Of a stretch of 64,000 nt of DNA, positions 5,120-58,806 are shown one piece after another (position 1 is the stretch's first letter; the number at the start of each line of letters is the position of its first letter). Origin of the DNA: Nevskiales bacterium (lineage in GTDB: Bacteria > Pseudomonadota > Gammaproteobacteria > Nevskiales > Nevskiaceae); assembly GCA_028698335.1 (NCBI GenBank), contig JAQVDP010000007.1:1-64000 (forward strand), written 5' to 3'. Below the pieces are notes generated by a model that searched no databases, was not told where the DNA came from, and was given only the letters and a program-made list of their open reading frames with translations. The position numbers and the translations under genes are program-made.

Positions 5120-5555
5120 ACTCGCGCAAACGCGCCTCCTCGGCCTCCTTCGCCAGCACCTGCTCGGGCTGGAAGCTGTAGTCGCGCGTCACCCGCAGGC
5201 GGTCCGGGCCGGCCAGCATCTCCACGCCGGAGAACACCTCGTACTGGACGCTGGTGACCAGCCGGTATTCGAGCGCCTTGCCGTCGATGCCGATCGACAG
5301 CACCTGCCGCGATTCGGTCAGATCCCGGAAGCGGATCACCGTGGTGTCCGCGTCGATGCCGCTGCGCACGGTCGCGCCGCGACGCTGCAGAATCGCGCGC
5401 AGCGATTTCTCCAGCGGTGGCTGCGACACGCGATACGGCGCGATCACCTCGATATAGACGTCCTGCAGCGCCGGGGGCAGCGGCCGGCTGCCGGCCAGGC
5501 GGAACCCGCAACCGGCCAGTGGCAGCAGCAACAGCAGCGCGAGCCAGTTCCGCAT
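4983..5555 (-). CDS. lptE: LPS-assembly lipoprotein LptE
   Basis: The start at 5555 gives a classical lipoprotein signal (MRNWLALLLLLPLAGC, lipid-modified C16). The next residues GFRLAGSRPLPPALQ match the LptE (RlpB) beginning GF.L. The 190-residue length fits the family. LptE plugs the LptD beta-barrel and helps insert LPS into the outer leaflet. The start codon overlaps the stop of a relic of a leuS 3' end (TGATG), the ancestral leuS-lptE arrangement. The C-terminus is Pro/Ala-rich and overlaps the glcF-like 3' end on the other strand. Confidence 0.9.
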   Translation of the reverse strand: MRNWLALLLLLPLAGCGFRLAGSRPLPPALQDVYIEVIAPYRVSQPPLEKSLRAILQRRGATVRSGIDADTTVIRFRDLTESRQVLSIGIDGKALEYRLVTSVQYEVFSGVEMLAGPDRLRVTRDYSFQPEQVLAKEAEEARLREFIQTEMAELMMLRLETQLAGVSPVGQKPPAAVVPAVPAGAAPPAR

Positions 5556-5584
5556 CAGACGACGAAGTTGACGAGCTTGCCGGG
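5555..5584 (-). pseudogene. Relic of a second leuS 3' end, abutting lptE
   Basis: On the minus strand this segment encodes PGKLVNFVV followed by TGA, the same nine residues that end the functional leuS at 5742-5713. The two copies lie 158 bases apart. All five coding differences are at third codon positions and synonymous, so both were once under selection as LeuS C-termini. The segment lies in a 21-codon open frame from an ATG at 5620, whose stop overlaps the lptE ATG (TGATG). Confidence 0.75.
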
Positions 5585-5590
5585 GTGAGC

Positions 5591-5626
5591 CGGAAAAAGA
5601 ATGAATGCCTTGAAGGGCATTCGTTC
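5591..5626 (-). terminator. Rho-independent terminator between leuS and lptE
   Basis: On the minus strand GAACGAATGCC, loop CTTCAA and GGCATTCATTC form an 11-bp stem with one G-T pair, followed directly by TTTTTCC. It would terminate leuS transcription and separate it from lptE. It lies within the roughly 130-base spacer between the two copies of the leuS end. Confidence 0.6.
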
Positions 5627-5712
5627 CCAGCGAACTGGCGGACACGCGATCCGCCCCGGGTTCCGGGCTCGCCCTATTCCACTGCACCAAGCTTGCATAA
5701 AAAATCCGGCCT

Positions 5713-8355
<2,643 letters not shown>

Positions 8356-8438
8356 TTAGCAGCCGCAACCCACCAGCTCCCGCAGCTGTCACATCCGGGG
8401 AAGGGGCCCGTTCGGGCACAGGAAGCCCCGGCCCGGAC

Positions 8439-8485
8439 TGACAAAATTTGTCACTATCAGCCCCACTCGGGTCAGTCATTGTCAC
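8439..8485 (+). promoter_or_regulatory. Candidate PilR activator sites upstream of pilA
   Basis: TGACAAA-A-TTTGTCA (8439-8453) is a perfect 7-bp inverted repeat, and another TTGTCAC follows at 8479-8485. They lie 65-110 bases upstream of the sigma-54 -24 box, the usual place for an NtrC-family activator. Known PilR sites at pilA promoters contain TGTC cores, so PilR binding is a reasonable inference. Confidence 0.5.
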
Positions 8486-8549
8486 CTTGATCAAAGTTAT
8501 CCACAGAACAACCCATTGGTTTCCCTACGTTTCGTTGGGGCTGCTCAGT

Positions 8550-8565
8550 TGGCACACGACCTGCT
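8550..8565 (+). promoter_or_regulatory. Sigma-54 (RpoN) promoter of pilA
   Basis: TGGCACACGACCTGCT matches the -24/-12 consensus TGGCAC-N5-TTGC at all but one position, with GG and GC in correct register. Transcription would start near 8577, giving a leader of about 54 bases before the pilA ATG. RpoN/PilR control of pilA is established in Pseudomonas. Confidence 0.82.
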
Positions 8566-8630
8566 GTAGGAAAAAGCGCACACGGAATATACCGGGCGCT
8601 TTTCACCAACCGCATTCTGGAGACTTCACC

Positions 8631-9056
8631 ATGAACAAGCAGCAAGGCTTCACGCTGATCGAACTGATGATCGTCGTCGCGATCATCGGCATCCTCGCCG
8701 CCATCGCCCTACCGGCGTATCAGGATTACACCGTACGCGCCCGTGTTACCGAAGGTCTGAACTTGGCATCAGCCGTCAAGACTGCGGTCTCCGAGTCAGC
8801 CGCTTCCGGTGTCGCCCTCACCGACATGGATGCACTGACCGACGTCGGAGCCAGCTTCGACGCAACCGACATCGTCGACACAATGACGCTTACCGACGGA
8901 GTAATCACCATTGGTTTCGTTGACGCACAGGTCGGTGGATCAAACCTGTCCATCACCATGACACCGCAAATCGAGTCTAATGGGACGATTACTTGGACCT
9001 GTGCGGCAAATGCCGCTGCTAATAACAAGTATGTCCCTGCGAACTGCCGCGTCTAA
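8631..9056 (+). CDS. pilA: Type IV major pilin
   Basis: This 141-residue prepilin has leader MNKQQG followed by [20 protein letters not shown], the canonical PilD cleavage site (G6/F7), with Glu at mature position 5 and the N-terminal alpha1 helix. Cleavage and N-methylation would be done by PilD, encoded at 15599. The C-terminal Cys pair ([18 protein letters not shown]) forms the disulfide-bounded D-region. It is short, Thr/Asp-rich and has no C-terminal Ser, unlike pilins modified by TfpO. The start is fixed by the leader. It is transcribed from the sigma-54 promoter and followed by its own terminator. Confidence 0.96.
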
Positions 9057-9086
9057 TATTCGGCACGTTTCATAGGGTTCTAAATG

Positions 9087-9113
9087 CGCCGCCTTCTGGC
9101 GGCGTCCTTTTTT
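9087..9113 (+). terminator. Rho-independent terminator of pilA
   Basis: CGCCGCC TTCT GGCGGCG is a perfect 7-bp stem followed by TCC and a run of six T. It lies 30 bases after the pilA stop and just before the next gene, so pilA can be made in large excess over the enzymes downstream. Confidence 0.88.
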
Positions 9114-9129
9114 GGGCGCTCAAAATTCC

Positions 9130-11193
9130 GTGGTGCACACACTACAATTTGCTCTGGTCTCCCTAACGCTCTGGGCCCACTGGGAAGTCCTGTCCCCTAA
9201 ACTGTCAACGTCGTCGAAGCAATCCGAGGGGCTTATCTCTTTCCTACGAGAAGCCTGGAGCGAACACCCTTCCGCCTTTTTGCCCCTGATCGGACAGTTC
9301 CTTTCGATCGCCACACTGTATGGTCTTTTTTTTGCGCTGGTGTTCTGGGCCGGAAGAACCGGAGCGGCACACCGCGTATCAACCACGCTCCGAGCCCAGA
9401 TCACCCGCCTGGCAATGGCATGGGCCGCAATCTGCTGGTTGACGTTGCGCATCAATTCGCATTTCTTCCCGCAATCAATCTGGGCCTGGGTAGCCCAGCC
9501 GGTCATCGACCAGCCGCTGTCAATCACCCTCGACCTGGCGGCGGCCCTGTGGATCGCTTGGCGGATCGGCATAGCCCTGCACCAGCACCTGCGCGCCCAC
9601 AACAAACCCCGGCCAGCAGTCATTGCCTCACTATTCGCGGCATCAACAATCGGCCTCGTCACCTGGCAGCTGCAACACGGTACCTCTGAAGCCCTCGGCG
9701 CCGTAACACCGACATCTCACCGGCCTCCGAACGTCATCATCATTGGACTCGACTCGGTCCGAAATGACATCGCCTTAGACGGTGCATACACCGAGATGCC
9801 AGAGCTTCAAACATTGAGGCGCCGCTCGATGGTGCAAACGAACGTCATCGCGCCACTGGCGCGAACCTATCCTGCGTGGACCACCATTCTCACCGGAAAA
9901 AGTCCAGCCGAACACGGCGCGCGTTTCAATTTGACCTCGCCAGATCAGGTCGACACCACCAGCAGCATTGGACACAACTTCAGGAACGCCGGATACCGCA
10001 CCATCTATGCCACCGACGAAACACGCTTCAGCAATATCGGAAAAGATTTCGGGTTTGACGAAGTCGTGGCGCCCGCTCCCGGGCTCGCCGATTTTGTGCT
10101 TGGCTCTTTCGCTGATACCCCCTTGGTCAACCTCGCGATCCAACTACCGGGCGCAGAGTGGATGCTGCCGTCGCTGGTCGGCAACCGTGCATTTGCCGAA
10201 GCCTATCGGCCACGACGATTTCTCTCCCTGCTGAGATCCAAGCTGCAGGATGGGGCGCCCGAAGCGCCCGTGTTCCTTGCCGTACATTTATGCCTAGCGC
10301 ACTGGCCATATGCCAGCACGGATACCTCCGTATCAAGTGAACCCAATACCGGAACCGCCCGCGCACGCTATCGGTCGGCACTCACCGAAGTGGATCATCA
10401 ACTCGGCGAGTTGCAGAGAATGCTGCACGAGCTCGATATCTGGAACGACGAAACCTTGGTGGTTGTTCTTAGTGATCACGGCGAGTCGTTCGGCATCAAT
10501 CCCACTCCCACTGTGCAGAGCAACCATCCTGGACTGCCAAGTCCTGGCTTCCCGATCGGAGGGCACGGTGGCTCGCTACTCGACCCCGCGCAGTGGAAGA
10601 CGTTTGCGATGTTCCATGGCCACTCGCAGCTGGGAAATATCCCGGCGGGCGAATCGGATCAGCTCTTGTCTCAAGCGGACTTGCCCCCCGCAATCCTTGC
10701 TCTGTCAGGCCTGAGCCCCCCGGAAACCAATCCTCTCAATACGCTGAGGGGGCGCAACATGATCCCTAGCCTCCCCCACGAACGTGTCGCTGTCGGAATC
10801 GAGACCGGCTTTCGCGGCCGCGGGCTCGACCCGACAAATCCGGACTTGTCGGTCGCGCTCGGGATCGGCCTCAGCTCATATCTACTCCGCAAAGACGGGC
10901 GCCTCGAAATGAGCCCCGCAACATTCGATATCGCGATGCAAGACAAAGACTTCGGAGTCACGGATGGCAAGCAGGTGCTGGTGCGGGTCGAGCGTGGACA
11001 GGGCTCAATTTTGGTACACGCCGATTTTGAAGAACATGTCTGGAGCATATATCCCGTACACCCTGAAGACGGAGCAGGCTCGACGCCCCCGCCACCCCTG
11101 CTCGACGCAGCATGCGAGGACAAGGAACTTCGCATCAGAATTGCCGCATGGTGCAACAGTTCGCCCCTGAAGGATTCAGGGCATCACCTGTGA
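9130..11193 (+). CDS. Membrane-anchored alkaline-phosphatase/sulfatase-superfamily enzyme, possible pilin-modifying transferase
   Basis: About 687 residues from a GTG at 9130 (TTG at 9112 or GTG at 9133 are alternatives; no ribosome site decides). The first roughly 200 residues hold about four membrane segments. A periplasmic catalytic domain follows: NVIIIGLDSVRND (metal-binding Asp), RTYPAWTTILTGKSP with Thr (about 246) in the nucleophile position, and VVLSDHGESFG. A Thr nucleophile and N-terminal membrane helices resemble phosphoethanolamine-type transferases more than soluble sulfatases. Its place between pilA and an O-antigen-ligase-like gene suggests modification of pilin or of its glycan. 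That is inference. GC is visibly lower than in the flanking genes. Confidence 0.7.
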   Translation: MVHTLQFALVSLTLWAHWEVLSPKLSTSSKQSEGLISFLREAWSEHPSAFLPLIGQFLSIATLYGLFFALVFWAGRTGAAHRVSTTLRAQITRLAMAWAAICWLTLRINSHFFPQSIWAWVAQPVIDQPLSITLDLAAALWIAWRIGIALHQHLRAHNKPRPAVIASLFAASTIGLVTWQLQHGTSEALGAVTPTSHRPPNVIIIGLDSVRNDIALDGAYTEMPELQTLRRRSMVQTNVIAPLARTYPAWTTILTGKSPAEHGARFNLTSPDQVDTTSSIGHNFRNAGYRTIYATDETRFSNIGKDFGFDEVVAPAPGLADFVLGSFADTPLVNLAIQLPGAEWMLPSLVGNRAFAEAYRPRRFLSLLRSKLQDGAPEAPVFLAVHLCLAHWPYASTDTSVSSEPNTGTARARYRSALTEVDHQLGELQRMLHELDIWNDETLVVVLSDHGESFGINPTPTVQSNHPGLPSPGFPIGGHGGSLLDPAQWKTFAMFHGHSQLGNIPAGESDQLLSQADLPPAILALSGLSPPETNPLNTLRGRNMIPSLPHERVAVGIETGFRGRGLDPTNPDLSVALGIGLSSYLLRKDGRLEMSPATFDIAMQDKDFGVTDGKQVLVRVERGQGSILVHADFEEHVWSIYPVHPEDGAGSTPPPPLLDAACEDKELRIRIAAWCNSSPLKDSGHHL

Positions 11194-12470
11194 TCGGGCG
11201 CCCGGCACGGATTCGGCTCGACATTCTGCGGACACGGCTTGCAACTGTTGTCCTGCTGACAGGCATCGTCGCCTCAGTCGGCGTCACCAGCCTCCCCATG
11301 CAGTTGCGCCAGCCTCCATACGTCATATTGCTGCCACTGCTGTTCTCGCTCCTGATGGCGCCCGAGGCTTTTCGCGAAGTCCGCGCGCTATGGAAGATCC
11401 CCCTGTTCCGCTATGGCGTCTGGTCGGCGCTGATTCTGTTTGTCGGCTGGAAACTGTTCATCGGCCAAGTCTGGCACCTCCATCGAACATGGCTATATAT
11501 CGCCGTTCTCTTGCTTGGGCTGGCGGCTGCCGGATGGCTGAGACAGGATCCCGAACACCGTTGGCTAAAAATTGCGTATACGAAAATTGCCACGGTTGCG
11601 GCCGCAATCACATGGATATGCATCGACGGATTTACCGTTGACAGATCCGCGCTTGGAGCGCTGTGGAAGGACCTTCCCGTCTATTTTCACGTCCGCCACG
11701 CCAATATGGAGGTGTTCACGGCGACGGCGCTCATTGTTGGGATCTGGAAATACAGCGGCGCCACGAGCCGTGCTCTTTTCGCGACAGCCTTGGCGCTGTT
11801 CGGATATTTCAGCGCATGGACAGGGGGGCGTGGAGAAATTCTCTCAATCGCCGTTTTTTCGGTTTGCCTGCTCACCGCCCTGAATATTCGCTCCCTGCCA
11901 ATGCGATGGCTCGCCATGCCGGCCGCAGCATTCGCCAGCGGGGTGTTGATGGCGGCGCTCTCAGGTCATGGGCACGGAATTGAGCGCTGGTTCGCGCGGA
12001 CGATGCAGGATTCAGTCGACGAAATGTCTTCGGGAAGGTTGACGATCTGGACCCTGTGCATCGAACGCGTCAGTGCGAACTGGGACACCCTCTGGTTCGG
12101 CTTCGGGCCGGATGCCTATGCACGAGCCGGCATGAACCATGCCCTTGAAGCGCTGACAGGCCGGCCGAATTTTACGGCGCAGCCGCATAACACTCTCGTC
12201 CTGTGGCTCCTGGAATTCGGCGTCGTCGGCACAGTGCCCCTCGCGGCTTGGAGCCTCCACTGGCTCACTTGCGCCACGCAAACCCTGAAGGAAACACGAG
12301 CCACGCCTCAGGACGCTGCCATCGCAGGATTGTTGATCGCAACGTATTTCTACTCTTTGTTCGATGGCCAGTTTTATTACGATTTTCAGCTCTGCATCAT
12401 CGCTCTGGCAATCGCGTACCTGGGGCAAATCCGCCGGCGTATCAGCAGCACCGCCGGAAACACTGGATGA
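11190..12470 (+). CDS. O-antigen ligase / Wzy-like membrane protein, possible pilin oligosaccharyltransferase
   Basis: About 426 residues from a GTG at 11190 that overlaps the previous stop (GTGA); an in-frame ATG at 11148 is the alternative. About ten hydrophobic segments are visible. A periplasmic loop near residues 265-345 contains RLTIWTLCIERV, WFGFGPDAY and AQPHNTLVLWLLEFG, the His-containing signature of the Wzy_C/WaaL ligase family. Members transfer lipid-linked glycans to lipid A or, when linked to pilin genes (PglL, PilO/TfpO), to pilin. The neighbours make a pilin role plausible but the sequence does not prove it. GC is low like the preceding gene, with which it is translationally coupled. 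Confidence 0.72.
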   Translation: MIGRPARIRLDILRTRLATVVLLTGIVASVGVTSLPMQLRQPPYVILLPLLFSLLMAPEAFREVRALWKIPLFRYGVWSALILFVGWKLFIGQVWHLHRTWLYIAVLLLGLAAAGWLRQDPEHRWLKIAYTKIATVAAAITWICIDGFTVDRSALGALWKDLPVYFHVRHANMEVFTATALIVGIWKYSGATSRALFATALALFGYFSAWTGGRGEILSIAVFSVCLLTALNIRSLPMRWLAMPAAAFASGVLMAALSGHGHGIERWFARTMQDSVDEMSSGRLTIWTLCIERVSANWDTLWFGFGPDAYARAGMNHALEALTGRPNFTAQPHNTLVLWLLEFGVVGTVPLAAWSLHWLTCATQTLKETRATPQDAAIAGLLIATYFYSLFDGQFYYDFQLCIIALAIAYLGQIRRRISSTAGNTG

Positions 12471-12603
12471 CCCCGTGTTCAGATCCGACTCGCAGTGCCG
12501 ATATTTGCCCAGGAGCGCCCCGTTCCCGGCAAATGCCGGCACAACAGCGCTGGATCCGCGGTTATGCTAATAATCAGCGTCATATTGAGATTGAGCCGCT
12601 AGC

Positions 12604-14343
12604 ATGGCATTGAGCCCTTCGAACCAACAAAGCCAGGCATTCCTCGGCGGTCTTGCGCGTCGTCTGGTCGCCGACAAGCTGCTGACTGAGGAATCGGCAC
12701 GCGAGGTGCAGCAAAAGGCGCTCAAGAGCGGGCGCGCTTTGGTTTCGGTACTCGTCGAATCCAAGCTGGCCCGCCCCGCCGCCATTGCCGAATCGGCCAG
12801 CCTCGAGTTCGGCATCCCCCTGCTGGACCTGTCCGCAGCCGACATCGACCCAGCAGTCGCGCGCGAAGTCAGCGAAAAAGTCCTGCGCAAGACCAACGCA
12901 CTACCCCTGTTCAAGCGCGGCAAGAAGATCTACGTCGCGGTTTCGGACCCGACCAACCTGCAGGCCCTGGACGAGATCAAGTTCGCGACCGGGCAGCAGA
13001 CCGAGGCGATCCTGGTCGAGGACGACAAGCTCGCAAAGGCCATCGACGCGGCGGTACAAGTCGCCGAATCCCAGCAGATGGACCTCGGCGACGCCGACCT
13101 TGAGAACCTCGATATCGTCGAGGGCGGCGAGTCCGAAGCGGCTGGGCTCGACGTCACCCGCGCCGATGCCGAAGACGCGCCGATCATCCGCTATGTCAAC
13201 AAGATCCTGGTGGACGCGATTCATCAGGGCTGCTCGGACATCCACTTCGAGCCCTACGAAAAGACCTACCGGATCCGCTACCGAAGGGACGGCGAGCTCA
13301 AGACGATCGCCACCCCCCCCGTTTCTCAAGGTGGGCGCCTGGCAGCCCGCGTCAAGGTCATGTCCCGCCTGGATCTCGCCGAACGCCGTATCCCCCAGGA
13401 CGGCCGCATCAAGCTGAATCTCTCCAAGACCAAGGCGATCGATTTTCGCGTCAGCACCTGCCCGACCCTGTTTGGCGAAAAGATCGTCTGCCGCATTCTG
13501 GATCCGTCCAGCGCGCAGCTCGGCATCGATGCACTCGGCTACGAGCCGGAGCAGAAAGCCGCCTACATGCATGCCCTCGAGCAACCGCAGGGCATGATCC
13601 TAGTCACCGGCCCGACCGGGTCGGGCAAGACGGTGTCGCTGTACACCGGCCTGAATATTCTCAATACCGAGGATATCAACATCTCGACCGCGGAGGACCC
13701 GGCCGAAATCAACTTGCCTGGCATCAATCAGGTCAACGTCAACCCGAGGGTGGGCCTGACCTTCGCCGCCGCACTGCGCTCGTTCCTGCGTCAGGATCCG
13801 GACGTGATCATGGTCGGCGAAATCCGCGATCTCGAGACGGCCGAAATTGCCATTAAAGCGGCTCAAACCGGCCACTTGGTCCTCTCGACCCTCCACACCA
13901 ACGACGCACCCCAGACAATCGTGCGCCTGATGAACATGGGCGTTCCCGCGTACAACATCGCATCGACCCTGACGCTGATCATTGCCCAGCGCTTGGCGCG
14001 TCGTTTGTGCAGCTCGTGCAAGAAGGTTGCCAACATCCCGCGTGCGGAATTGATCAAGCAGGGTTTCACGGAAGCGGAAATCGATGCTCCCGGCTTCGAA
14101 GTCCACGAGGCGGTCGGCTGTGATCAGTGCGACAGTGGCTACAAGGGGCGAACGGGCGTCTATCAGGTGATGCCTTTTTCAGATGCCATGGGACGCATCA
14201 TCATGGAAGGCGGAAGCGCGATGGAGATCGCCGATCAATCGCTCAAGGAAGGCATCAAGGACCTGCGGCAATCGGCATTGGCCAAGGTCCGTGCGGGCAT
14301 CATCGATCTGGCGCAGGCCAATGCCTGTACCATGGGCGACTAG
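12604..14343 (+). CDS. pilB: Type IV pilus assembly ATPase PilB
   Basis: This 579-residue protein has the N-terminal GspE/MshEN domain (about 10-160). The hexameric secretion ATPase core follows, with Walker A GPTGSGKT near 336-343, an Asp box (TAEDPAEI), Walker B (DVIMVGEIRD) and a His box (GHLVLSTLHTND). A tetracysteine zinc motif (CSSCKK...CDQCDSGYKG) is present near the C-terminus. It powers pilus extension at the inner membrane. The ATG follows a weak purine-rich stretch. It lies 19 bases upstream of pilC in a pilBCD operon. Confidence 0.97.
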   Translation: MALSPSNQQSQAFLGGLARRLVADKLLTEESAREVQQKALKSGRALVSVLVESKLARPAAIAESASLEFGIPLLDLSAADIDPAVAREVSEKVLRKTNALPLFKRGKKIYVAVSDPTNLQALDEIKFATGQQTEAILVEDDKLAKAIDAAVQVAESQQMDLGDADLENLDIVEGGESEAAGLDVTRADAEDAPIIRYVNKILVDAIHQGCSDIHFEPYEKTYRIRYRRDGELKTIATPPVSQGGRLAARVKVMSRLDLAERRIPQDGRIKLNLSKTKAIDFRVSTCPTLFGEKIVCRILDPSSAQLGIDALGYEPEQKAAYMHALEQPQGMILVTGPTGSGKTVSLYTGLNILNTEDINISTAEDPAEINLPGINQVNVNPRVGLTFAAALRSFLRQDPDVIMVGEIRDLETAEIAIKAAQTGHLVLSTLHTNDAPQTIVRLMNMGVPAYNIASTLTLIIAQRLARRLCSSCKKVANIPRAELIKQGFTEAEIDAPGFEVHEAVGCDQCDSGYKGRTGVYQVMPFSDAMGRIIMEGGSAMEIADQSLKEGIKDLRQSALAKVRAGIIDLAQANACTMGD

Positions 14344-14362
14344 GAACTGACGGATTACGACG

Positions 14363-15583: not shown

Positions 15584-15598
15584 GCTTCATCTAACTAA

Positions 15599-16468: not shown

Positions 16469-16470
16469 CG

Positions 16471-17139: not shown

Positions 17140-17158
17140 CTGCGAGCATGCATCGCCG

Positions 17159-19064: not shown

Positions 19065-19109
19065 GCCTGTGCTCGAGTCACCGTCCGGCGACACCGCCAC
19101 CAACCGGAC

Positions 19110-29250: not shown

Positions 29251-30203
29251 GCCGTGCTCCCACCGTCCGCGGCGGCAAGCGTGGTTTCGAGAATCGCCCA
29301 GCACAGCTGCGGGTACTCCATTCCGCGCTGGCGCGCGGCCATCGGCACAAGGCTGTGCGAGGTCATGCCCGGCACCAGATTGGCCTCGATCAGCCACGGA
29401 CGGCCGTCGGCATCGAGCATGAAGTCGATCCGGCCCCAACCGCTCGCGCCGATCGCGTCGAACGCCTCGAGACAGGTCCGCCGGAGACCGGCCTCGTGCT
29501 CGGCATCGAGTCCCGCCGGGCAGAAATAGCGGGTCGCGTCGGACAGATACTTCGCGTCGTAGTCGTAGAATTCGCCTGCCGGCTCGATCCGGACCAGCGG
29601 CAGGGCCTCGCCGTCCAGCACCGCGCAGGTGTATTCGCCGCCGGCGATGAAGCGCTCCGCCATCACCACCCGACCGCGTCCGCCGCCGGCGCCCGCGTAG
29701 GCCTCGGCCAGACCGGACGCCGCCTTGACCTTGCTGACCCCGACGCTGGACCCCTCGTCGGCCGGCTTGACGATCAGCGGATATCCGAGCCGCAGCGCGG
29801 CTTCCTCGAGCGCCTCCAGCGAACGGACATGGACGTAGTCCGGCGTCGGAAGCTGTTCGGCCTGCCACAGCCGCTTGGTGCGCAACTTGTCCATGGCCAG
29901 CGCAGTCGCCAGCACACCGCTGCCGGTGTATGCGACCCCCTGCAGTTCCAGAGCGGCCTGCACCGTACCGTCTTCTCCGCCAGTGCCGTGCATCACGTTG
30001 AAGGCGCGATCGAAGCCGCGCGATCCGAGTGTCAGGATCGTCTCCCGGTCGGCATCGACGGCATGCGCGTCCACTCCGAGCGACCGCAGCGCGTCGGTCA
30101 CTCCCTGCCCGGACCACAGGGACACCTGGCGCTCGGACGACCAGCCGCCCATCAACACCGCGACGCGGCCAAACTCCTTCGGGTTCGTCACGATCCGTCT
30201 CAT
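29247..30203 (-). CDS. ddlB: D-alanine-D-alanine ligase
   Basis: A 318-residue ATP-grasp enzyme. FGRVAVLMGGWSSERQVSL is the Ddl N-terminus, FNVMHGTGGEDGTVQAALE the substrate motif, and PLIVKPADEGSSVGVSKV and GRIDFMLDADGRPWLIEANL the ATP and Mg sites. It makes the D-Ala-D-Ala dipeptide used by MurF. The ATG at 30203 has its own ribosome site (GGAGG) and overlaps by ATGA the stop of a 58-codon frame holding a duplicate of its own first 21 codons. murB therefore no longer touches ddlB directly. Confidence 0.97.
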   Translation of the reverse strand: MRRIVTNPKEFGRVAVLMGGWSSERQVSLWSGQGVTDALRSLGVDAHAVDADRETILTLGSRGFDRAFNVMHGTGGEDGTVQAALELQGVAYTGSGVLATALAMDKLRTKRLWQAEQLPTPDYVHVRSLEALEEAALRLGYPLIVKPADEGSSVGVSKVKAASGLAEAYAGAGGGRGRVVMAERFIAGGEYTCAVLDGEALPLVRIEPAGEFYDYDAKYLSDATRYFCPAGLDAEHEAGLRRTCLEAFDAIGASGWGRIDFMLDADGRPWLIEANLVPGMTSHSLVPMAARQRGMEYPQLCWAILETTLAAADGGSTA

Positions 30204-30376
30204 GCACCCCTCCGATCGGCTGGTCGAGCATCAATCGGACGTCCGGCCCTCGGGCCAAGCCCTCGGGCGTTCGCCGTGCCCGCGAGCCACGCTCGCGAAG
30301 CAGCACGACTCACCCAGCCACCCATCAGCACCGCGACGCGGCCGAAGTCCGTCGGATCGCCTGTACGCCTACGCAT
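30200..30376 (-). pseudogene. Relic of a second ddlB 5' end in a 58-codon frame between murB and ddlB
   Basis: The frame starts at an ATG (30376) that overlaps the murB TAG. Its first 21 codons read like ddlB: 15 of 21 residues match, including FGRVAVLMGGW. In that 33-base block (30314-30346 against 30141-30173) 30 bases match and the three differences are synonymous. After residue 21 homology to Ddl ends, and the frame runs through a palindromic GC-rich spacer. It stops in TGA overlapping the real ddlB ATG (ATGA). It is probably translated as a coupling leader but has no Ddl activity. Confidence 0.8.
30272..30297 (-). repeat. REP-like palindrome in the murB-ddlB spacer
   Basis: CGCGAGC GTG GCTCGCG (30281-30297, minus strand) is a perfect 7-bp stem with a 3-base loop. 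It is followed by GGCACGGCG, the layout of REP-type intergenic repeats. A related string (CGCGAGCG...CGGGCACGGCG) recurs at 57868-57890 beside the third gene-end duplication. Confidence 0.45.
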
Positions 30377-44399: not shown

Positions 44400-44403
44400 G
44401 CGC

Positions 44404-44409
44404 ATTATC
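44404..44409 (-). promoter_or_regulatory. -10 element of rnpB
   Basis: GATAAT on the minus strand lies 6-8 bases upstream of the predicted rnpB 5' end. The -35 region is GC-rich and does not match well. Confidence 0.4.
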
Positions 44410-44478
44410 CGCCATCGGCCGCCGGAACGGCAGTCCGATAGAATCCGGCCCTCCATTCATTCGAGCGACGAACCCCTC

Positions 44479-44910: not shown

Positions 44911-44922
44911 TCCCGACCGGCG

Positions 44923-45690: not shown

Positions 45691-45702
45691 GCCCGCCCCT
45701 GC

Positions 45703-47621: not shown

Positions 47622-47709
47622 CGGGGGCAACGCTAGTCAATCCGGGGTCGCGGATTGTACCGAGGCTGGGCGACGACCGCTGGGAAGCCGGACCGGGCGC
47701 CGCTGTGCC

Positions 47710-48468: not shown

Positions 48469-48521
48469 GGTAAATCCCCGGTCGGGAACGGATCGGCGCC
48501 CACTCTATCGCGTACGCGGCT

Positions 48522-50789
<2,268 letters not shown>

Positions 50790-50793
<4 letters not shown>

Positions 50794-51722
50794 GCGGAGG
50801 CTCCCGCGGGCGCGGCCGAGCGACCGGTCAGCTCGATGAAAATGTCCTCGAGATCCGGCTCGCGGGTGTGGACATCATCGATATCGACGCCGGCGTCGCG
50901 CAGCGCCATGAACACCGCACTGATCGGATGCCTGCCGCTTTCGAGCTTGAGTTCCAGGGTACCCTCCTGCTCGGCGGCCACCAGCGGGCGCAACGCCTCG
51001 GGCAGCTGCGCGCCCTCCGGCAGGCGCAGGCGCAGAAACCGGAACGGGTGGCGTGCCAGCAGTTCGCGGGTGGTGTCGATCACCTGCAGCGCCCCCTTGT
51101 CGAGGATCGCGATGCGCTCGCACAGCTCCTGCGCTTCCTCGAGATAGTGCGTGGTCAGGACCACCGTCGTGCCGGCGCGGTGCAGCTCGGTCATGAACGA
51201 CCACAGGGTCCGCCGCAGTTCGACGTCGACACCGGCAGTCGGTTCGTCGAGGATCACCACCTGCGGCCGGTGCACCAGCGCCTGCGCGATCAACACCCGG
51301 CGTTTCATGCCGCCGGACAGCGCCCGCATCGAACTGCCGGACTTGCCGGCGAGGTCGAGACGATCGAGCATCTCGTCGATCCAGGGCCAGACCTCGCGCC
51401 CGCAGCCGTAGTAGCCGGCCTGAATCCGGAGCATGTCGCGGACCGTAAAGAAGGGATCGAACACCAGCTCCTGGGGAACGACGCCCAGCTGGCGCCGCGC
51501 CTGCCGGAACTGGCGGACGGTGTCGTAGCCCATGACGCTGATCCGGCCCGCGTTCATCTGGACCAGACCGGCAATGATGCTGATGAGAGTGGATTTACCG
51601 GCGCCGTTGGGACCCAGCAGGCCAAAAAACTCGCCCTGGCGGATCTCGAAATCGATTCCGCGCAGTGCAGTGACCGGGCCATAGGTTTTGCGGACGCCGG
51701 CGATCTCGATGGCCGGTTGCAT
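50790..51722 (-). CDS. ABC transporter ATPase (YadG-like)
   Basis: 310 residues from ATG 51722. Walker [19 protein letters not shown]-loop VPQELVFDPFFTVRD, signature LSGGMKRRVLIAQAL, Walker B QVVILDEPTAGVDVE and H-loop LTTHYLEEAQELCE are all present. The C-terminal domain (about 215-300) is typical of drug/polysaccharide-type ABC-2 exporters. A -10 TATAAT lies on the minus strand at 51732-51737. Confidence 0.93.
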
Positions 51723-51731
51723 AGGGGCGGA

Positions 51732-51737
51732 ATTATA
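51732..51737 (-). promoter_or_regulatory. -10 element of the ABC-ibaG-murA transcript
   Basis: Consensus TATAAT lies 10 bases upstream of the ATPase ATG on the minus strand. A TTGCCG lies 15 bases further up. The transcript would be nearly leaderless. Confidence 0.35.
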
Positions 51738-51794
51738 GGCGCTTTCGCCGCCCGGCAACGGCACACAGCTTTCGAACGACGGAGGGACCGGAAC

Positions 51795-53258
51795 ATGACG
51801 ACTGGCTGCACGGTGGTTTGGATGCGCCGCGACCTACGCCTGACCGACAACCCTGCGCTGCAGGCCGCGCTGCAGCGCGGCGGCGCCATCGTACCGCTGC
51901 ATATCGACGATCCGACCGCTGCGCGGCCCGCGGGCGCGGCCAGCCGCTGGTGGCTGCATCACAGCCTGGCCGCACTGAGCGACGATCTGGCCATGAGAGG
52001 CTCGGCGCTGCTGGTCCGGCGCGGCCCGCCCCTGAGCGTCCTGCGGCAGGTCGTGACCGAATGCGCGGCGACCGCGGTGTACTGGAATCGCCTCTACGAA
52101 CCGGAGGCGGTCGAGCGGGACGGACCGATCAAGGCCGCCCTGCGGGCGGACGGCATCGAGGCCCGGAGCTTCGGTGCGGCGCTGTGGGCCGAACCCTGGA
52201 CCCTGCAAACCGGCGGCGGAAAACCGTTCAAGGTGTTTTCGCCGTTCTGGCGCACCCTGTCGCAGCAACTGCCGCAGGCACCGGTCGTGCCGGCGCCCGA
52301 TCGGGTGCCATCCCCACCGCGATGGCCCGCAGGACTCGCACTGGACGCGCTGGAGCTGCGCCCGCGGATCGCCTGGGACTCCGGACTCGCGCAGCACTGG
52401 CAGCCCGGCGAAGCCAGCGCCCTGCGGCGCCTGGAGGCCTTCGTCGACGCGGGGCTGGACGGCTACCACCACAACCGCGATCAGCCGGGCATCGACGGCG
52501 TTTCGCGCCTGTCACCGCACCTGCATTTCGGCGAAGTCGGCCCCCGTCAGGTGCTGGCCGCGGTGCGCCGACGGTATCCGACGGCCCCGCCCGAACTGGA
52601 ACCGCGCGGGTGCCGCGACGGTGAACACTTCCTGCGCGAACTCGGCTGGCGCGAATTCGCGCACCATTTGCTGTATCACTTCCCGCAGACCCCGGATCGC
52701 CCCCTGTACGCGCGCTTCGACGCCTTCCCCTGGCGCACACCCGCCGACTCCGCGGCGGATCTCGACGCCTGGCGGCACGGCCGCACCGGCATCCCGATCG
52801 TCGACGCCGGCATGCGCGAGCTGTGGCGCACCGGCTGGATGCACAACCGCGTGCGCATGATCGTGGCGTCGCTGCTGACCAAGAACCTCCTGATCCCCTG
52901 GCAGGAAGGGGCCGCATGGTTCTGGGACACACTGGTCGACGCCGACCTCGCCAACAACACTCTGGGCTGGCAATGGACCGCCGGCTGCGGCGCCGACGCC
53001 GCACCCTATTTCCGGGTCTTCAATCCGGTGCTGCAGTCCCGCAAGTTCGACCCGGACGGCAGCTACCTGCGCCGCTGGCTGCCCGAACTCGCCGATCTGC
53101 CGGATCGCGAACTCCACGAGCCGTGGCTGGGCGCAGCGGCGGCCGCGCGCGGCTACCCGGCGCCAATCGTCGATCTGCGCGCCAGCCGCCAGCGCGCACT
53201 GGCCGCATACGAGGCGGTGCGCGCCGGGGCGCCCGTGCAGGACGAGGCCAGCGACTGA
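51795..53258 (+). CDS. phrB: Deoxyribodipyrimidine photolyase (class I)
   Basis: 487 residues. The N-terminal antenna-cofactor domain begins VVWMRRDLRLTDNPALQAAL. The FAD domain has SRLSPHLHFGEVGPRQVLA, FLRELGWREFAHHLLYHFP, TGIPIVDAGMRELWRTGWMH (thymine-dimer site), and the C-terminal VDADLANNTLGWQWTAGCGAD with the Asn contacting FAD N5. It repairs UV-induced cyclobutane dimers using blue light. It is divergent from the ABC operon. Confidence 0.95.
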   Translation: MTTGCTVVWMRRDLRLTDNPALQAALQRGGAIVPLHIDDPTAARPAGAASRWWLHHSLAALSDDLAMRGSALLVRRGPPLSVLRQVVTECAATAVYWNRLYEPEAVERDGPIKAALRADGIEARSFGAALWAEPWTLQTGGGKPFKVFSPFWRTLSQQLPQAPVVPAPDRVPSPPRWPAGLALDALELRPRIAWDSGLAQHWQPGEASALRRLEAFVDAGLDGYHHNRDQPGIDGVSRLSPHLHFGEVGPRQVLAAVRRRYPTAPPELEPRGCRDGEHFLRELGWREFAHHLLYHFPQTPDRPLYARFDAFPWRTPADSAADLDAWRHGRTGIPIVDAGMRELWRTGWMHNRVRMIVASLLTKNLLIPWQEGAAWFWDTLVDADLANNTLGWQWTAGCGADAAPYFRVFNPVLQSRKFDPDGSYLRRWLPELADLPDRELHEPWLGAAAAARGYPAPIVDLRASRQRALAAYEAVRAGAPVQDEASD

Positions 53259-53320
53259 GACGGCGCGGCATCTGCCCGCCTGCGCTACCATCCCGGTCCT
53301 CACTTCGAGAACACCCCTTC

Positions 53321-54316
53321 ATGCTGCTCTCAATGCTCGCCGTCGTGGTCGGTCTGGCGCTGCTCGTCTGGTCGGCGGATCGATTCGTCCTTGGCGCCGC
53401 CGGGCTCGCACGCGCCGCCGGCCTCTCCCCGCTGATCATCGGCATGACGGTGGTCGGCTTCGGCACCTCGAGCCCGGAGCTGGCGGTATCGGCGCTGGCG
53501 TCATGGCAGGGCAACAGCGGCCTGGCGGTCGGCAACGCGGTGGGCTCGAACATCGCCAACGTCGGCCTGATCCTGGGCATCTGCGCACTGATCCAGCCGC
53601 TGTCGGTGCAGTCCGGCATTCTGCGGCGCGAGCTGCCGATGGCCACCGCCGCATCGCTGCTGCTCCTGCTGCTGGTGATCGACGGCACGCTCGGCCGCGT
53701 CGACGGTGCAATCCTGGCGGCGGGCCTGGTCGCCTTCCTCGCCTGGAGCATCCGCTCGGCACGACGCGGCGGTGACGACGCGCTTGCCACCGAGCTGGCC
53801 GGGGAGATGCCGCCACCGGTCCCGGCCGGACGCTCGATCCTGTGGATCGCGGTCGGTCTGGTGTTCCTGGTCGGCTCGTCGCAACTGCTGATCTGGGGCG
53901 CGGTCAACATCGCGCAGGCAATGGGGGTGTCCGATCTGGTGATCGGTCTGACCATCGTCGCCATCGGCACCAGCCTGCCGGAACTGGCCGCGAGCGTCGC
54001 CGGGCTGCTGAAGAAGGAGGACGACATCGCCATCGGCAACATCCTGGGATCGAATCTGTTCAACATCCTGGCGATTCTGCTGGCGCCCGCCCTGATCGAT
54101 CCGGGTCCGATCCCCGACCCGCTGCTGCTGTGGCGCGACATCCCGATCATGATCGGCCTGATGCTGATGCTGTGGGCCACGGCCTACGGCCTGCGCGGCA
54201 AGCCGCTGCGCCTGGAACGCATCGACGGCGCCCTGCTGCTGTCGGTCTACGTCGGCTACACGCTTATACTTCTGTATTCCGCCGTTTCCGAATCGCCATG
54301 GACGCCGACAAACTGA
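53321..54316 (+). CDS. yrbG: Calcium/sodium antiporter YrbG
   Basis: 331 residues with ten membrane segments and two inverted alpha-repeats: MTVVGFGTSSPELAVSALAS with NAVGSNIANVGLILG in the first, and TIVAIGTSLPELAASVAGLL with NILGSNLFNILAILL in the second. These are the ion-binding GTSxPE and GSN motifs of the Ca2+/cation exchangers. It overlaps kdsD by 19 bases, the conserved yrbG-kdsD order. Confidence 0.95.
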   Translation: MLLSMLAVVVGLALLVWSADRFVLGAAGLARAAGLSPLIIGMTVVGFGTSSPELAVSALASWQGNSGLAVGNAVGSNIANVGLILGICALIQPLSVQSGILRRELPMATAASLLLLLLVIDGTLGRVDGAILAAGLVAFLAWSIRSARRGGDDALATELAGEMPPPVPAGRSILWIAVGLVFLVGSSQLLIWGAVNIAQAMGVSDLVIGLTIVAIGTSLPELAASVAGLLKKEDDIAIGNILGSNLFNILAILLAPALIDPGPIPDPLLLWRDIPIMIGLMLMLWATAYGLRGKPLRLERIDGALLLSVYVGYTLILLYSAVSESPWTPTN

Positions 54317-55269
54317 TCGCCCTGGGCCGCCGCGCCCTGGAAATCGAGCGCGACGCGCTCGCCGCCCTGCTCGACCGCGTCGACGACCGTTTCGTCGAAG
54401 CATGCCGCACCATGCTCGCCTGTCAGGGTCGGATCGTCGTCACCGGCATGGGCAAGTCCGGTCACATCGGCGGTAAGCTCGCGGCAACGCTGGCATCGAC
54501 GGGCACCCCGGCATTCTTCGTCCATCCCGGCGAGGCCAGCCACGGCGACCTGGGCATGATCACCCGCCAGGATGTCGTCGTCGCGATCTCCTATTCGGGC
54601 GAGACCGCCGAGATCGTCACCCTGCTGCCACTGCTCAAGCGCATGCAGGCGCCCCTGATCGCGATGACCGGCAAGCCCGGATCGACGCTGGCGCAGGCGG
54701 CCGAGGTCCATATCGACGTGTCGGTCGAGGCCGAGGCCTGCCCGCTGAACCTCGCCCCGACGGCCAGCACCACCGCAACCCTGGCAATGGGTGACGCGCT
54801 GGCGGTCGCGCTGCTCGAGGCCCGCGGCTTCACCCCGGAAGATTTCGCGATGTCCCATCCCGGCGGCTCGCTGGGACGCCGGCTGCTGCTGAAGATCAGC
54901 GACGTCATGCACCAGGGCGAACGCCTGCCGACGGTCGCGCCCGACTGCATGCTGACCGAGGCACTGCTGGAAATGACCCGCAAGGGCCTGGGCATGACCG
55001 CCGTGGTCGACGACCAGCGCCACGTTCTCGGCGTGTTCACCGACGGTGACCTGCGCCGCATCCTCGACCACAACGTCGATGTCCGCAGCGCCCACATCTC
55101 AGAGGTCATGACCGCCGGCGGCAAATCGATCCGCAGCGACCAGCTTGCCGCCGAAGCCGTCGCGCTGATGGAGAAACACAAGATCACCGCGCTGCTGGTC
55201 AAGGACGCGGACGACCGCCTGATCGGCATCGTGCACATGCACGATCTGCTGCGGGCCGGTGTCGTCTGA
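54298..55269 (+). CDS. kdsD: Arabinose-5-phosphate isomerase
   Basis: 323 residues. The N-terminal SIS domain (about 35-185) contains RIVVTGMGKSGHIGGKLAA, VVVAISYSGETAEIVTLL and NLAPTASTTATLAMGDALA. Two CBS domains follow (about 205-323, ISDVMHQGERLP and ISEVMTAGGKSIR). It converts ribulose-5-phosphate to arabinose-5-phosphate for Kdo synthesis. TGATG overlap with kdsC. Confidence 0.96.
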   Translation: MDADKLIALGRRALEIERDALAALLDRVDDRFVEACRTMLACQGRIVVTGMGKSGHIGGKLAATLASTGTPAFFVHPGEASHGDLGMITRQDVVVAISYSGETAEIVTLLPLLKRMQAPLIAMTGKPGSTLAQAAEVHIDVSVEAEACPLNLAPTASTTATLAMGDALAVALLEARGFTPEDFAMSHPGGSLGRRLLLKISDVMHQGERLPTVAPDCMLTEALLEMTRKGLGMTAVVDDQRHVLGVFTDGDLRRILDHNVDVRSAHISEVMTAGGKSIRSDQLAAEAVALMEKHKITALLVKDADDRLIGIVHMHDLLRAGVV

Positions 55270-55781
55270 TGGCGCTCCTGTCCGAAGACGATCTGCTCGC
55301 CCGCGCCGCCCGCATCCGCTGCCTGTTCCTCGACATCGACGGGGTCCTGACCGACGGCAAGCTGTACATCGGACCCGCCGGCGAAGAGATCAAGACCAAT
55401 TTCGTACGCGACGGCTACGGCATCAAGCAGGCGCTCAAACACGGGCTGCACGTCGCGGTGATCAGCGGCCGACCGTCCGAATCGATGCGCGCGCGTCTGT
55501 CCTTTCTCGGCGTCCAGCACATCGCGCTCGACACCGAGGACAAGGAACCCGCCTATGAACGCATCTGCGCCGAGCTCGGCGTCAGCGACGACGAATGCGC
55601 GCACGTTGGCGACGACGTTCCCGATCTGCCGCTGCTCAGGCGCGTCAGTCTGGCGATGACGGTCGCCGATGCCCACCCCAGCGCACTGGCGGCCGCGCAC
55701 TGGGTCAGCCGCTGTACCGGCGGACACGGCGCCGTACGCGAAGCCATCGACCTGATCCTCGCCGCGAGGGGCACACACTGA
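55269..55781 (+). CDS. kdsC: Kdo-8-phosphate phosphatase
   Basis: 170 residues, HAD superfamily subclass C0: nucleophile motif CLFLDIDGVLTDGKLYI, VAVISGRPSESMRARL (motif II) and CAHVGDDVPDLPLLRRV (motif IV). There is no cap domain, so it should act as a tetramer. It releases Kdo from Kdo-8-phosphate. lptC follows after two bases. Confidence 0.96.
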   Translation: MALLSEDDLLARAARIRCLFLDIDGVLTDGKLYIGPAGEEIKTNFVRDGYGIKQALKHGLHVAVISGRPSESMRARLSFLGVQHIALDTEDKEPAYERICAELGVSDDECAHVGDDVPDLPLLRRVSLAMTVADAHPSALAAAHWVSRCTGGHGAVREAIDLILAARGTH

Positions 55782-55783
55782 CA

Positions 55784-56347
55784 ATGCCCCGCAACGCCGT
55801 CCTGTTTCCCACGCTGGCACTGCTGCTGTTCGCCGCGGTATGGCTGACCCTGCGCGGCTTCCGCGACAGCGCGTCGCTGCCGGAGATCGTCGAGATCGAA
55901 CGCCCGCGCTACCACCTCGACGGCGCCAACTGGGTGCGTTACGACGAAACCGGCACTCCGCTGTTCGAAATCCGCGCGATGAGCGTCGACTATTTCGACG
56001 ATGAATCCATGCAGATGCAGAAGGTCAGCGTGCAGCAGCTCGGCGGTGAATCCGGCGCCTGGCAGCTGACATCGACCCGCGGCGAAGTCCCGCCACAGGC
56101 CAGGCGCCTGCTGCTGGAACCCGACGTCACCGTCGTCGGCGATCCGCCCCGACAGCAGGGCCCGGTGACGATGCAGGCGCCTCAGCTCTGGGTCGACTGG
56201 GAGACCCGGCAGCTGACCACCGCGTCATCGGTTGCCGTGCAGGCGCCGGGTCGTTCGCTGACGGCCGTCGGCATGAATGCCGACTGGACCGGCCGGCGCA
56301 TTGAATTCGAGAATCAGGTCAATGTCCGACATGCCGCCCCGCGCTAG
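55784..56347 (+). CDS. lptC: LPS export protein LptC
   Basis: 187 residues with one N-terminal membrane anchor (LFPTLALLLFAAVWLTL, about 7-23) and a periplasmic beta-jellyroll. Y-H-L-D-G-A-N-W and QLTSTRGEVPPQ lie at the usual places, with WVDWETRQLTTASSV near the C-terminus. It relays LPS from LptBFG to LptA. It overlaps lptA by 26 bases. Confidence 0.92.
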   Translation: MPRNAVLFPTLALLLFAAVWLTLRGFRDSASLPEIVEIERPRYHLDGANWVRYDETGTPLFEIRAMSVDYFDDESMQMQKVSVQQLGGESGAWQLTSTRGEVPPQARRLLLEPDVTVVGDPPRQQGPVTMQAPQLWVDWETRQLTTASSVAVQAPGRSLTAVGMNADWTGRRIEFENQVNVRHAAPR

Positions 56348-56989
56348 CGCCGCCCATCCGAATGCCGCCCGGCACCCGCGCCGGCCGCATCCGCCGCGCC
56401 TGCTGCTGGCAGCTCTGCTGGCGGTGAACGCCGCATCCGTCCTGGCCCAGGACGACGCAACCGGGACGACTCCGACCGAGACCCCCTCCACGCTCGAGCA
56501 ACTGCGTCCGACCGGACCGGTCACCCTGCGGGCCGACAACGCCGAGTGGGTCGAGGGCGGCGCGATGGAGTACCGCGGCAACGTGTCACTCAGATCCGAC
56601 AACCTCAAGCTGCTGGGGTCCCGCATGACGGTCACCCAGGAGAACGACGGACAGTTCCGTGCCCGCATCGTCGGCGCGCCGGCCACACTGGACCACGCTG
56701 CCGTTGCCGGCGCCGGCGATGCCGCGTCCCAGGCCGTGTCGGCGCAGGCCGGTGAGATCGACTATGACTCGCGCAGCGGCATCATCCACCTCAGCGGCGG
56801 CGCAAAACTGACCCGCGGCAGCGACGAGGTCACCGGGCAGACGATCGACTACGCCGTCGCCGAACGCCGGATTCGCGCCAGCGGCGGCGGCGATTCGGGT
56901 CAGGTTCGCATCGTCATCCAGCCGCCGTCCGCACCGCCCGCGGAGCCCACCCCCGCGCCGGAATCCGCCGTCCAGCCGGAGCAGCGCCG

Positions 56990-56993
<4 letters not shown>
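56322..56993 (+). CDS. lptA: LPS transport periplasmic protein LptA
   Basis: 223 residues from ATG 56322 (56331 is also possible). A long Arg/Pro-rich n-region precedes the signal helix ([17 protein letters not shown]). The OstA/LptA beta-jellyroll follows: [36 protein letters not shown] and [15 protein letters not shown]. The C-terminus is Pro-rich. It forms the bridge that carries LPS across the periplasm. It overlaps lptB by four bases. Confidence 0.92.
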
Positions 56994-57721
<728 letters not shown>

Positions 57722-57770
57722 GCACGTTGCCGCGACGTTGAGCCCCGCTCTGGCGGCGGCACCGAAACCC

Positions 57771-57816
57771 GATCACCTCGTCGGCGAAGCGGTCAAGCCG
57801 TTCGCACTGCATGAAG
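57771..57816 (-). pseudogene. Duplicate of the 3' coding end of the neighbouring hydrolase
   Basis: This 46-base segment matches 57919-57964 (inside the hydrolase gene) at 44 of 46 positions. On the minus strand it encodes FMQCERLDRFADEVIGF, against FMQCERPDRFADEVIGF in the gene. The copies lie 148 bases apart, and similarity continues weakly beyond the 3' edge. The only two mismatches are adjacent and change Pro to Leu. No start or stop makes it a gene. Confidence 0.85.
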
Positions 57817-57841
57817 GACCGGCGCGAGCAGCGCGCAGGGG

Positions 57842-57890
57842 CCCCACGCAGTGGGGATGCAAGCGGCCGCGAGCGACGGCGGGCACGGCG
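57842..57890 (+). repeat. Palindromic spacer between the two hydrolase ends
   Basis: CCCCAC GCA GTGGGG (57842-57856) forms a 6-bp stem with a 3-base loop. It is followed by CGCGAGCGACGG and CGGGCACGGCG (57868-57890), a string that also occurs in the murB-ddlB spacer on the other strand. It may be a REP-like element and could act as a terminator for the hydrolase. Confidence 0.45.
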
Positions 57891-57891
57891 C

Positions 57892-58806
57892 CTACAGCGG
57901 GTGCCGGCGCAGGAATCCGATCACCTCGTCGGCGAAGCGGTCGGGCCGTTCGCACTGCATGAAGTGCCCCGCTCCTTTCATGCAGACCAGATCCAGCCCC
58001 GCGCCGTAGCAGTAGGCCTGATCCTCGAACATCTCCGGACCGATGCAGCCGTCCTCGGTGCCGTAGATGACCTTGGCCGGCACCGGCAACGGCGTACGAA
58101 TCGTCCGCCAGCTGTCCCCCTGCATCAGCGTCCGCGGCAATGCGCGGTAGTAGCCGAGCGCCGCGGCGCAGTGGTCCGGACGTCCCAGGGTCTCATGCAG
58201 GGGCACCATGTCATCGTCGGTATAGCGCCATCCGGGCGACCATTCGCGGATCAGCCAGTCGAGCCAGGCAAAGTCGTCCCGAACGATGCGTCGCTCGGGG
58301 CCCCTCCGCCACTGGAAGTAGCCGATGTACCAGGATCGTCGCAGCTGTTTGAGCGACGGGCGCAGCAGGAAACGCCGCAGATGCGGAATCGCCGCCGTGA
58401 CCACGGCGCCGATGCGCTCCGGGAACATGGTCGCGGCGAAATAGGTGGTCGCCGCACCCCAGTCATGTCCGACCAGATGCGCACGCTCGGCGCCGAGCGC
58501 CTCGATCAGCCCCGGAACGTCGCGGGCGATCGCCGGGAGCCGATAGTCGCCGTCCGGCGCCAGCCCGGTCGGATAGTAGCCCCGCATGAACGGAGCAACC
58601 GCCCGATACCCCGCCGCCGCCAGGCGCTCGAGGACCGGGACGAAGCTGTATGCGGTATCGGGAAAGCCGTGCAGGCACAGCACCAGCGGGCCGCTGCCGC
58701 GCTCCAGATAGGCGAAGTCGATGTCGCCGACCCTGACCATCGCCGGCTTGCTGTCATATCCCTGGTCCATCTTCCCCATCGATTCCGTCGCTCCTGCTGC
58801 GTCCAT
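57892..58806 (-). CDS. Alpha/beta hydrolase, epoxide-hydrolase/haloalkane-dehalogenase type
   Basis: 304 residues from ATG 58806, behind AGGTGG. The oxyanion motif LCLHGFPDTAYSF is followed by the nucleophile elbow VGHDWGAATTY with D115, not Ser, as nucleophile. That places it with epoxide hydrolases and haloalkane dehalogenases. The charge-relay His is in KGAGHFMQCERPDRF near the C-terminus. Substrate is not predictable. It is convergent with lptB and divergent from mscS. Its last codons are duplicated 148 bases downstream. Confidence 0.85.
   Translation of the reverse strand: MDAAGATESMGKMDQGYDSKPAMVRVGDIDFAYLERGSGPLVLCLHGFPDTAYSFVPVLERLAAAGYRAVAPFMRGYYPTGLAPDGDYRLPAIARDVPGLIEALGAERAHLVGHDWGAATTYFAATMFPERIGAVVTAAIPHLRRFLLRPSLKQLRRSWYIGYFQWRRGPERRIVRDDFAWLDWLIREWSPGWRYTDDDMVPLHETLGRPDHCAAALGYYRALPRTLMQGDSWRTIRTPLPVPAKVIYGTEDGCIGPEMFEDQAYCYGAGLDLVCMKGAGHFMQCERPDRFADEVIGFLRRHPL

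Follow-up and report, generated by a model that had tools for sequence, protein, structure and literature searches.

Hairpin elements flanked by copies of gene ends in a Nevskiaceae genome and its relatives

Three genes within a 64,000-nucleotide stretch of DNA (the window), taken from a Nevskiaceae genome in the genus of Solimonas terrae, appear to carry one of their ends twice with a short spacer between the two copies. An earlier note had described these gene-end duplications, proposed that they share a design and listed several ways in which they could have arisen, which raises the question of whether they are genuine and what event can copy the end of a gene while leaving the gene whole. 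When the window was compared with itself, without gaps, at offsets of 60-400 nt, the hydrolase pair came out on top with a score of 42 (46/48 in the core, offset 148). The ddlB pair followed with a score of 27 (37/42 in the core, offset 173), and both are outliers against a third-ranked pair with a score of only 15. The leuS pair (offset 158, 21/25, score 13) was joint lowest among the 12 best pairs and by itself is no better than chance level, but it was accepted because the leuS-end duplication recurs with the identical junction, CCGGCTCA followed by CCCCGGCAAGCTCGTCAA, in G003 from the same genus and G012 from another genus. All three duplications were confirmed as genuine and as part of a wider phenomenon. 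Each site runs from the neighbour through T, the hairpin element and T′ to the rest of the gene, where T′ is part of the intact gene and T is a surplus copy of its terminus:

5555..5584, minus strand: T at leuS, surplus leuS 3′ end adjoining lptE; reads PGKLVNFVV* with stop TGA
5585..5662, plus strand: E2 at leuS; starts GTGAGCCGG precisely at the T junction; top own-genome match of the held-out model R2 (E = 0.02)
5713..5742, minus strand: T′ at leuS, the real leuS 3′ end; stop TAG
30314..30376, minus strand: T at ddlB, surplus ddlB start whose ATG overlaps the murB stop; from self-comparison and relatives
30237..30313, minus strand: E2 at ddlB; starts GTGAGTCG, junction GGTGGCTGG followed by GTGAG; second own-genome match of R2 (E = 0.045)
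30141..30203, minus strand: T′ at ddlB, the intact ddlB start; gene from profile search
57752..57816, minus strand: T at the hydrolase gene, surplus 3′ end adjoining lptB; from self-comparison
57817..57891, minus strand: E1 at the hydrolase gene; core TCCCCACTGCGTGGGGCCC at 57839-57857
57892..57964, minus strand: T′ at the hydrolase gene, the real alpha/beta hydrolase 3′ end; alignable copy 57900-57964, gene 57892-58857, stop codon 57892-57894

Profile searches named leuS, ddlB, murB and lptB (NCBIfam) and LptE and the alpha/beta hydrolase (Pfam), confirming lptE, murB and lptB as the neighbours. The proposed common design holds for the shared order T-element-T′ but not for the element, as there are two families among the sites, E2 at leuS and ddlB and E1 at the hydrolase gene. 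Spacers of roughly 100-130 bases, as first described, are found at leuS (128 nt) and ddlB (110 nt), whereas that of the hydrolase gene measures 75-83 nt; all three hold hairpins. The two 30-nt copies at leuS are identical apart from five third positions and the stop codon, which is TGA in T and TAG in T′. At ddlB, T starts with ATG and has the murB stop within the next bases (ATGCGTAG); by alignment the same murB/ddlB overlap is present in G012 (ATGCGTAA) without any insertion, and we therefore read T as the native position and the element together with T′ as the addition. Reading the ddlB site as an intron was rejected, the leuS element lying in the opposite orientation relative to its gene so that splicing cannot cover both.

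The E2 fold was derived from an alignment of twelve copies, made on sequence alone, and consists of a stem at the GTGAG end around a hairpin, followed by a second hairpin. Both sides have changed at 15 of 25 pairs, compared with 6.5 ± 1.8 in shuffled alignments (0/500 reach 15) and with at most 8 double-changed pairs when partners were slid along the sequence; the inner hairpin is the least regular part, with 64.8 % of cells paired. The E2 fold is conserved. In most folded copies (L331, L070, L094) the stem base contains a GA/GA internal loop (GUGAG...CGAAC), a motif known from structured RNAs. A known RNA family was discarded as a candidate, an Rfam scan of 12 loci having returned four weak matches, all below the cut-off and outside the elements.

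The spacers do share features, namely the E2 covariance model and the E1 core, against the earlier note's proviso that spacers with nothing in common would speak against a single mechanism. We built a held-out E2 model, R2, from eight mtnC and two tRNA-associated copies, with no leuS or ddlB copy among them, and searched 62 sources (1,229,507 bases, the mtnC stretch of the window's genome excluded). Its top two matches in that genome are the leuS (E 0.02) and ddlB (E 0.045) spacers of the window, followed by two at 0.75 and 0.8, and elsewhere it matched leuS of G003 (3.6e-9), ddlB of G006 (4.8e-8) and leuS of G012 (2.4e-5). A first E2 model, partly built from genomes later searched and used with strict filters and no more than 82 scored candidates per genome, which make the counts per genome lower bounds, gave matches in 54 of 58 family genomes, with at least 0-48 in each, a maximum of 48 in G017 and 4 in the window's genome. 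A plain-pattern search had found E2 in 2/58 genomes only and was too strict, and the covariance model was used instead.

Duplication of the terminus was scored in a non-random sample of 90 loci drawn from the best-scoring of about 710 matches and holding 98 matches, 96 of them scored. We compared the 60 nt 5′ of each element with the 170 nt beyond it and used random positions in the same loci as controls. A terminus copy was found at 23/96 elements versus 3/480 random positions at score ≥ 14 and at 22/96 versus 0/480 at score ≥ 16; seven of the 23 are mtnC orthologues or units, which leaves about 17 sites, and 73/96 copies are without T at score ≥ 14. T runs exactly up to the start of E2 in 18/23 cases (19/27 at score ≥ 12). 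The element starts with GTGAG in 71/96 copies and is directly preceded by GG in 86/96 (21/23 with T, 65/73 without T; background 0.088), and since 65 of 73 T-less copies also have the GG it may be part of E2 itself. Duplications are 18 to 60 nt long at score ≥ 14, 60 nt being the width searched. By eye, the far end of T falls on, or within about 10 nt of, a start or stop codon at L371, L353, L359, L364, L394 and L403, and lies further out at L416 (7 nt) and L375 (9 nt). At L416, in G017, a tRNA-Arg gene is interrupted by E2 directly behind the D-loop GG and its 5′ part is rebuilt: the match between T and T′ spans 26 nt, including 7 that precede the tRNA, and the intact tRNA was detected with ARAGORN on the side of T′.

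The E1 core TCCCCRCTGCGYGGGGCCC, allowing at most one mismatch, occurs 30 times in 17/58 family genomes (0-4 per genome), and the reversed control gave no occurrence. We scored 29 of the 30 loci (L288 was excluded; L270 lies at a contig end with no left flank visible) and found a flanking repeat of score ≥ 20 in 16, while among 145 random positions 8 reach 14, one reaches 16 and none reaches 18. These 16 include six that represent one orthologous gene, two pairs that form one array each (L269/L281 and L280/L286) and two loci, L261 and L278 (offsets 300 and 221), at which a gene end is not established. In named genomes the core was identified at 80 loci or more, among them Solimonas terrae and many Betaproteobacteria. 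Seventeen of 81 clusters were excluded as close to a contig end, and 26 of the 64 scored have flanking repeats at score ≥ 14, versus 4/320 positions; 19 of the 26 lie at offsets 105-113. E1 is like E2 in behaviour and extends to Betaproteobacteria, where the repeat often comprises a ribosome-binding site and the ATGA overlap of neighbouring genes, as in Ralstonia sp. A12 with GAGGTGGCAGCATGA on both sides of E1. Because the repeated piece is alike at several different betaproteobacterial loci (about GGAGGYGGCRGCATGA, by eye), it may partly be the element's own end. A phage origin was set aside, with the E1 core present in just 5 viral contigs. In four genomes (L056, L149, L193, L201) E1 copies adjoin an apparent guaA 3′ end (TTACTCCCACTC, by eye), perhaps a preferred E1 site.

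The earlier note proposed a genome-wide scan for such pairs, and further loci were found in the 29 % of the window's genome that was scanned for repeats (1,237,963 of 4,298,632 bases, selected loci then being read by eye). The scan gave 74 direct pairs versus 25 mirror-control pairs, the ten listed mirror pairs all from C26, a count that is weak evidence alone because the 74 include many repeats within coding sequence that keep the frame. The individual loci include relatives of the hydrolase spacer at C33:18879-19034, where three copies of the rsxA 3′ end recur every 111 nt and are separated by a homologous element, the dcd 3′ end present five times at a period of 143/144, and the mtnC start, duplicated over 38/39 nt at offset 138 (all three genes named by NCBIfam profile search). 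A tRNA-Thr 3′ end, the tRNA being confirmed, is duplicated at C32:154428-154950, and a probable second tRNA 3′ end, recognised by eye only, is cut by the contig end at C12:1. With the three of the window these make eight loci.

Relatives provided filled, empty and multiplied versions of the same sites. The mtnC arrangement is present in the window's genome, G001, G003, G005, G006, G007 (where T has decayed), G008 and G010 (two units), an apparent remnant is seen in G002 and G004, and the site is empty in G009 and G015. The ddlB duplication recurs in G006 with a junction identical to the window's, while G008, G009, G012 and G013 have empty ddlB sites and G009 and G015 empty leuS sites. Tandem units were identified at mtnC of G010, dcd and rsxA. 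Two genes evolve in concert: at mtnC (8 genomes) T resembles its own T′ (0.91) more than the T′ of others (0.825; 8/40320 permutations as high), and at a gene ending KVQSKQKNRLRGIPVTVQ (the KVQSK gene, 6 genomes) the values are 0.872 own versus 0.797 cross (2/720 permutations as high). Since T is nearer to its own T′, and the KVQSK-gene junction is identical in 6/6 genomes, these duplications look old and look to have been kept alike by gene conversion.

We place about even confidence in reading these sites as insertions of small, structured, non-coding and non-autonomous elements with long, variable target duplications, and among the origins first listed the best fit is the one in which a small palindromic element makes long duplications of its target. 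Mobilised, as we infer, by an enzyme acting in trans, the element would join through its fixed 5′ end (in E2, GTGAG right after GG). The joining point J would lie within the gene terminus, at a depth of between a few and about twenty codons. The stretch from J to the gene boundary, some 20-65 nt, would be duplicated in the same event as a long variable target-site duplication, giving the product neighbour-T-element-T′-gene in which T′ keeps the gene whole; insertions with an incomplete copy would damage the gene and be expected to be lost. Later recombination between T and T′ could then produce likeness through gene conversion, tandem arrays through slippage or an empty site through deletion, and T would otherwise decay. 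Insertion at J is favoured because the 5′ end is fixed and preceded by GG, T directly adjoins the neighbour and empty sites exist. Its weak point is that T tends to stop at the gene boundary, which free target duplication would not predict. Selection could account for this bias at gene starts, as at mtnC, where the last part of E2 resembles a ribosome-binding site (AGGA- or GGGAG-like) immediately 5′ of T′, together with erosion outside the coding part in old copies. To our knowledge long, variable target duplications are unusual among bacterial transposases. The REP-associated tyrosine transposase that the earlier note proposed to look for had no match in the window's genome (Y1 transposase, PF01797; the same search was positive in 5/14 control genomes), and RAYT mobilisation there was rejected on this ground. 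More tentatively, the elements might form an undescribed class of bacterial hairpin element, found across Gamma- and Betaproteobacteria, for which copying of the gene terminus is part of insertion, leaving the insertion harmless after GG in essential and tRNA genes, by a terminus-restoring chemistry perhaps involving a single-stranded or RNA intermediate and an enzyme.

The gene boundary is better explained by template switching, which we hold to be a serious though less likely rival. The element would already lie at the boundary, and a stall of replication or repair at the base of its hairpin would be followed by re-pairing at the genic GG, the terminus being recopied by slippage or from an element-free sister. 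The 5′ end of E2 is indeed the base of a strong stem, the GG at the junction could serve as microhomology and the boundary of the gene is frequently where T stops. In the pre-core flank of E1 the junction region recurs in inverted form, which is characteristic of template switching, at score ≥ 8 in 36/96 clusters versus 94/1139 cross pairs and at score ≥ 10 in 5/96 versus 5/1139. In a separate comparison of inverted arms gene by gene the signal is clear at rsxA and KVQSK and weak or absent at L268, L269, L281 and L284, high cross values in that comparison coming mostly from orthologues or the same array. The tandem arrays also suit this explanation, as do published REPIN clusters, which repeat together with their flanks (PMC3116915). 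However, the arrays at mtnC of G010, dcd and rsxA have T rather than the element as their outermost unit, and T at ddlB directly joins murB, as in insertion-free relatives. Template switching would require either a template that lacks the element or a second deletion that is precise.

Xenologous replacement, another of the origins first listed, is improbable. A foreign element and gene end would have entered by homology on one side and a join at GG on the other, making T native and T′ foreign, and the leuS copies, with only third-position and stop-codon differences, could be of this kind. However, the junction mostly falls at the element's own end (18/23), where a random illegitimate join would leave foreign sequence, and at mtnC and the KVQSK gene such replacement is unneeded, T and T′ of one genome being closer than cross pairs. 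Chance or assembly artefact is very improbable, for although the leuS pair alone is no outlier and two contigs of the window's genome start inside repeats, the same junctions are present in independent genomes and random positions reach score 14 in 4/320, 8/145 and 3/480 cases and score 18 in 0/320 and 0/145; lone chance repeats were rejected on such controls.

Insertion with target duplication recalls several known systems. MITEs are small, non-coding and dispersed and make a short target duplication of fixed length; some E2 copies likewise have inverted ends (TGAGCCG ... CGGCTCA), but their duplication is tens of nucleotides long and variable and no parent transposon is known. Gene-end displacing elements of fungal mitochondria insert near a gene end, bring a second end that restores the gene and carry an endonuclease reading frame. 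The restored gene end is common to both, whereas the spacers here are too short for such a frame. Site-specific integrative elements differ in that no integrase lies between the end copies here, the spacers of 75-128 nt leaving no room for one.

The nearest known kind is the REP/REPIN repeats, and we place E2 and E1 as a new form among the dispersed palindromic repeats, though they may well turn out to be something more. REP and BIME sequences are described as short extragenic palindromes near stop codons, unevenly distributed across species (PMC3733652, PMC2817692). E2 and E1 are also extragenic palindromes near gene ends (by eye), but no terminal tag of the GTAG and CGTC super-families was recognised in them, by eye only, a single copy is flanked by a gene-terminus copy with a fixed junction, and no Y1 transposase was found in the window's genome. 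Large REP clusters are tandem reiterations that include flanking DNA segments (PMC3733652), a rayt 3′ end has on four occasions been incorporated into the inter-REP segment of a BIME (PMC2817692), and the IS200/IS605 family makes no larger target duplications (PMC2817692). REP copy number is given as usually above 100 per genome (PMC2817692), with families of 20-100 or fewer (PMC3733652), compared with at least 0-48 per genome for E2 and 0-4 for E1. REPINs are dispersed miniature mobile DNA whose ordered clusters are tandem repeats with flanks (PMC3116915); E2 and E1 are dispersed too and their tandem clusters take in flanking DNA, but two inverted REPs and a RAYT were not recognised here and the terminus is duplicated around single copies. 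Among titles and opening lines of abstracts no terminus-duplicating hairpin element is described, and the letters of the E1 core were found in no paper. Short repeats are mostly intergenic, presumably since insertion inside genes does harm, and a repeat that brings its own copy of the gene end could settle in essential genes, in tRNA genes and at operon junctions where genes overlap. It would also leave a base-exact record of its route of entry, and with a long gene-matched duplication, a fixed junction after GG and a conserved fold the insertion mechanism becomes directly testable.

Some further observations concern individual loci. A third type of element (GACTCGCTRCGCTCGCCCTYCGGGCC) lies beside duplicated tRNA 3′ ends at L315 (C32:154428-154950) and L121:1-300. 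At G000:C35:34178-34340, in the window's genome, two copies of a 41-nt palindromic stretch, matching at 37/41 positions, lie 82 nt apart; no gene end was recognised beside them, and they possibly represent another repeat family. Two contigs of this genome, G000:C12:1-300 and G000:C35:1-420 (L121 and L291), start inside direct repeats and other repeat copies lie at contig ends in G023:C82 (L053) and G003:C18 (L411), so that short-read assemblies may be interrupted at repeats of this kind. At L051 (G008:C15), by eye, the element supplies the stop of the functional copy (GTDS*) while the outermost copy keeps VAT*. In Polaromonas (L196 and L206) the E1 core lies within a long hairpin whose outer arms, TTTGATTCGCC and GGCGAATCAAA, apparently take in the adjacent gene's stop codon.
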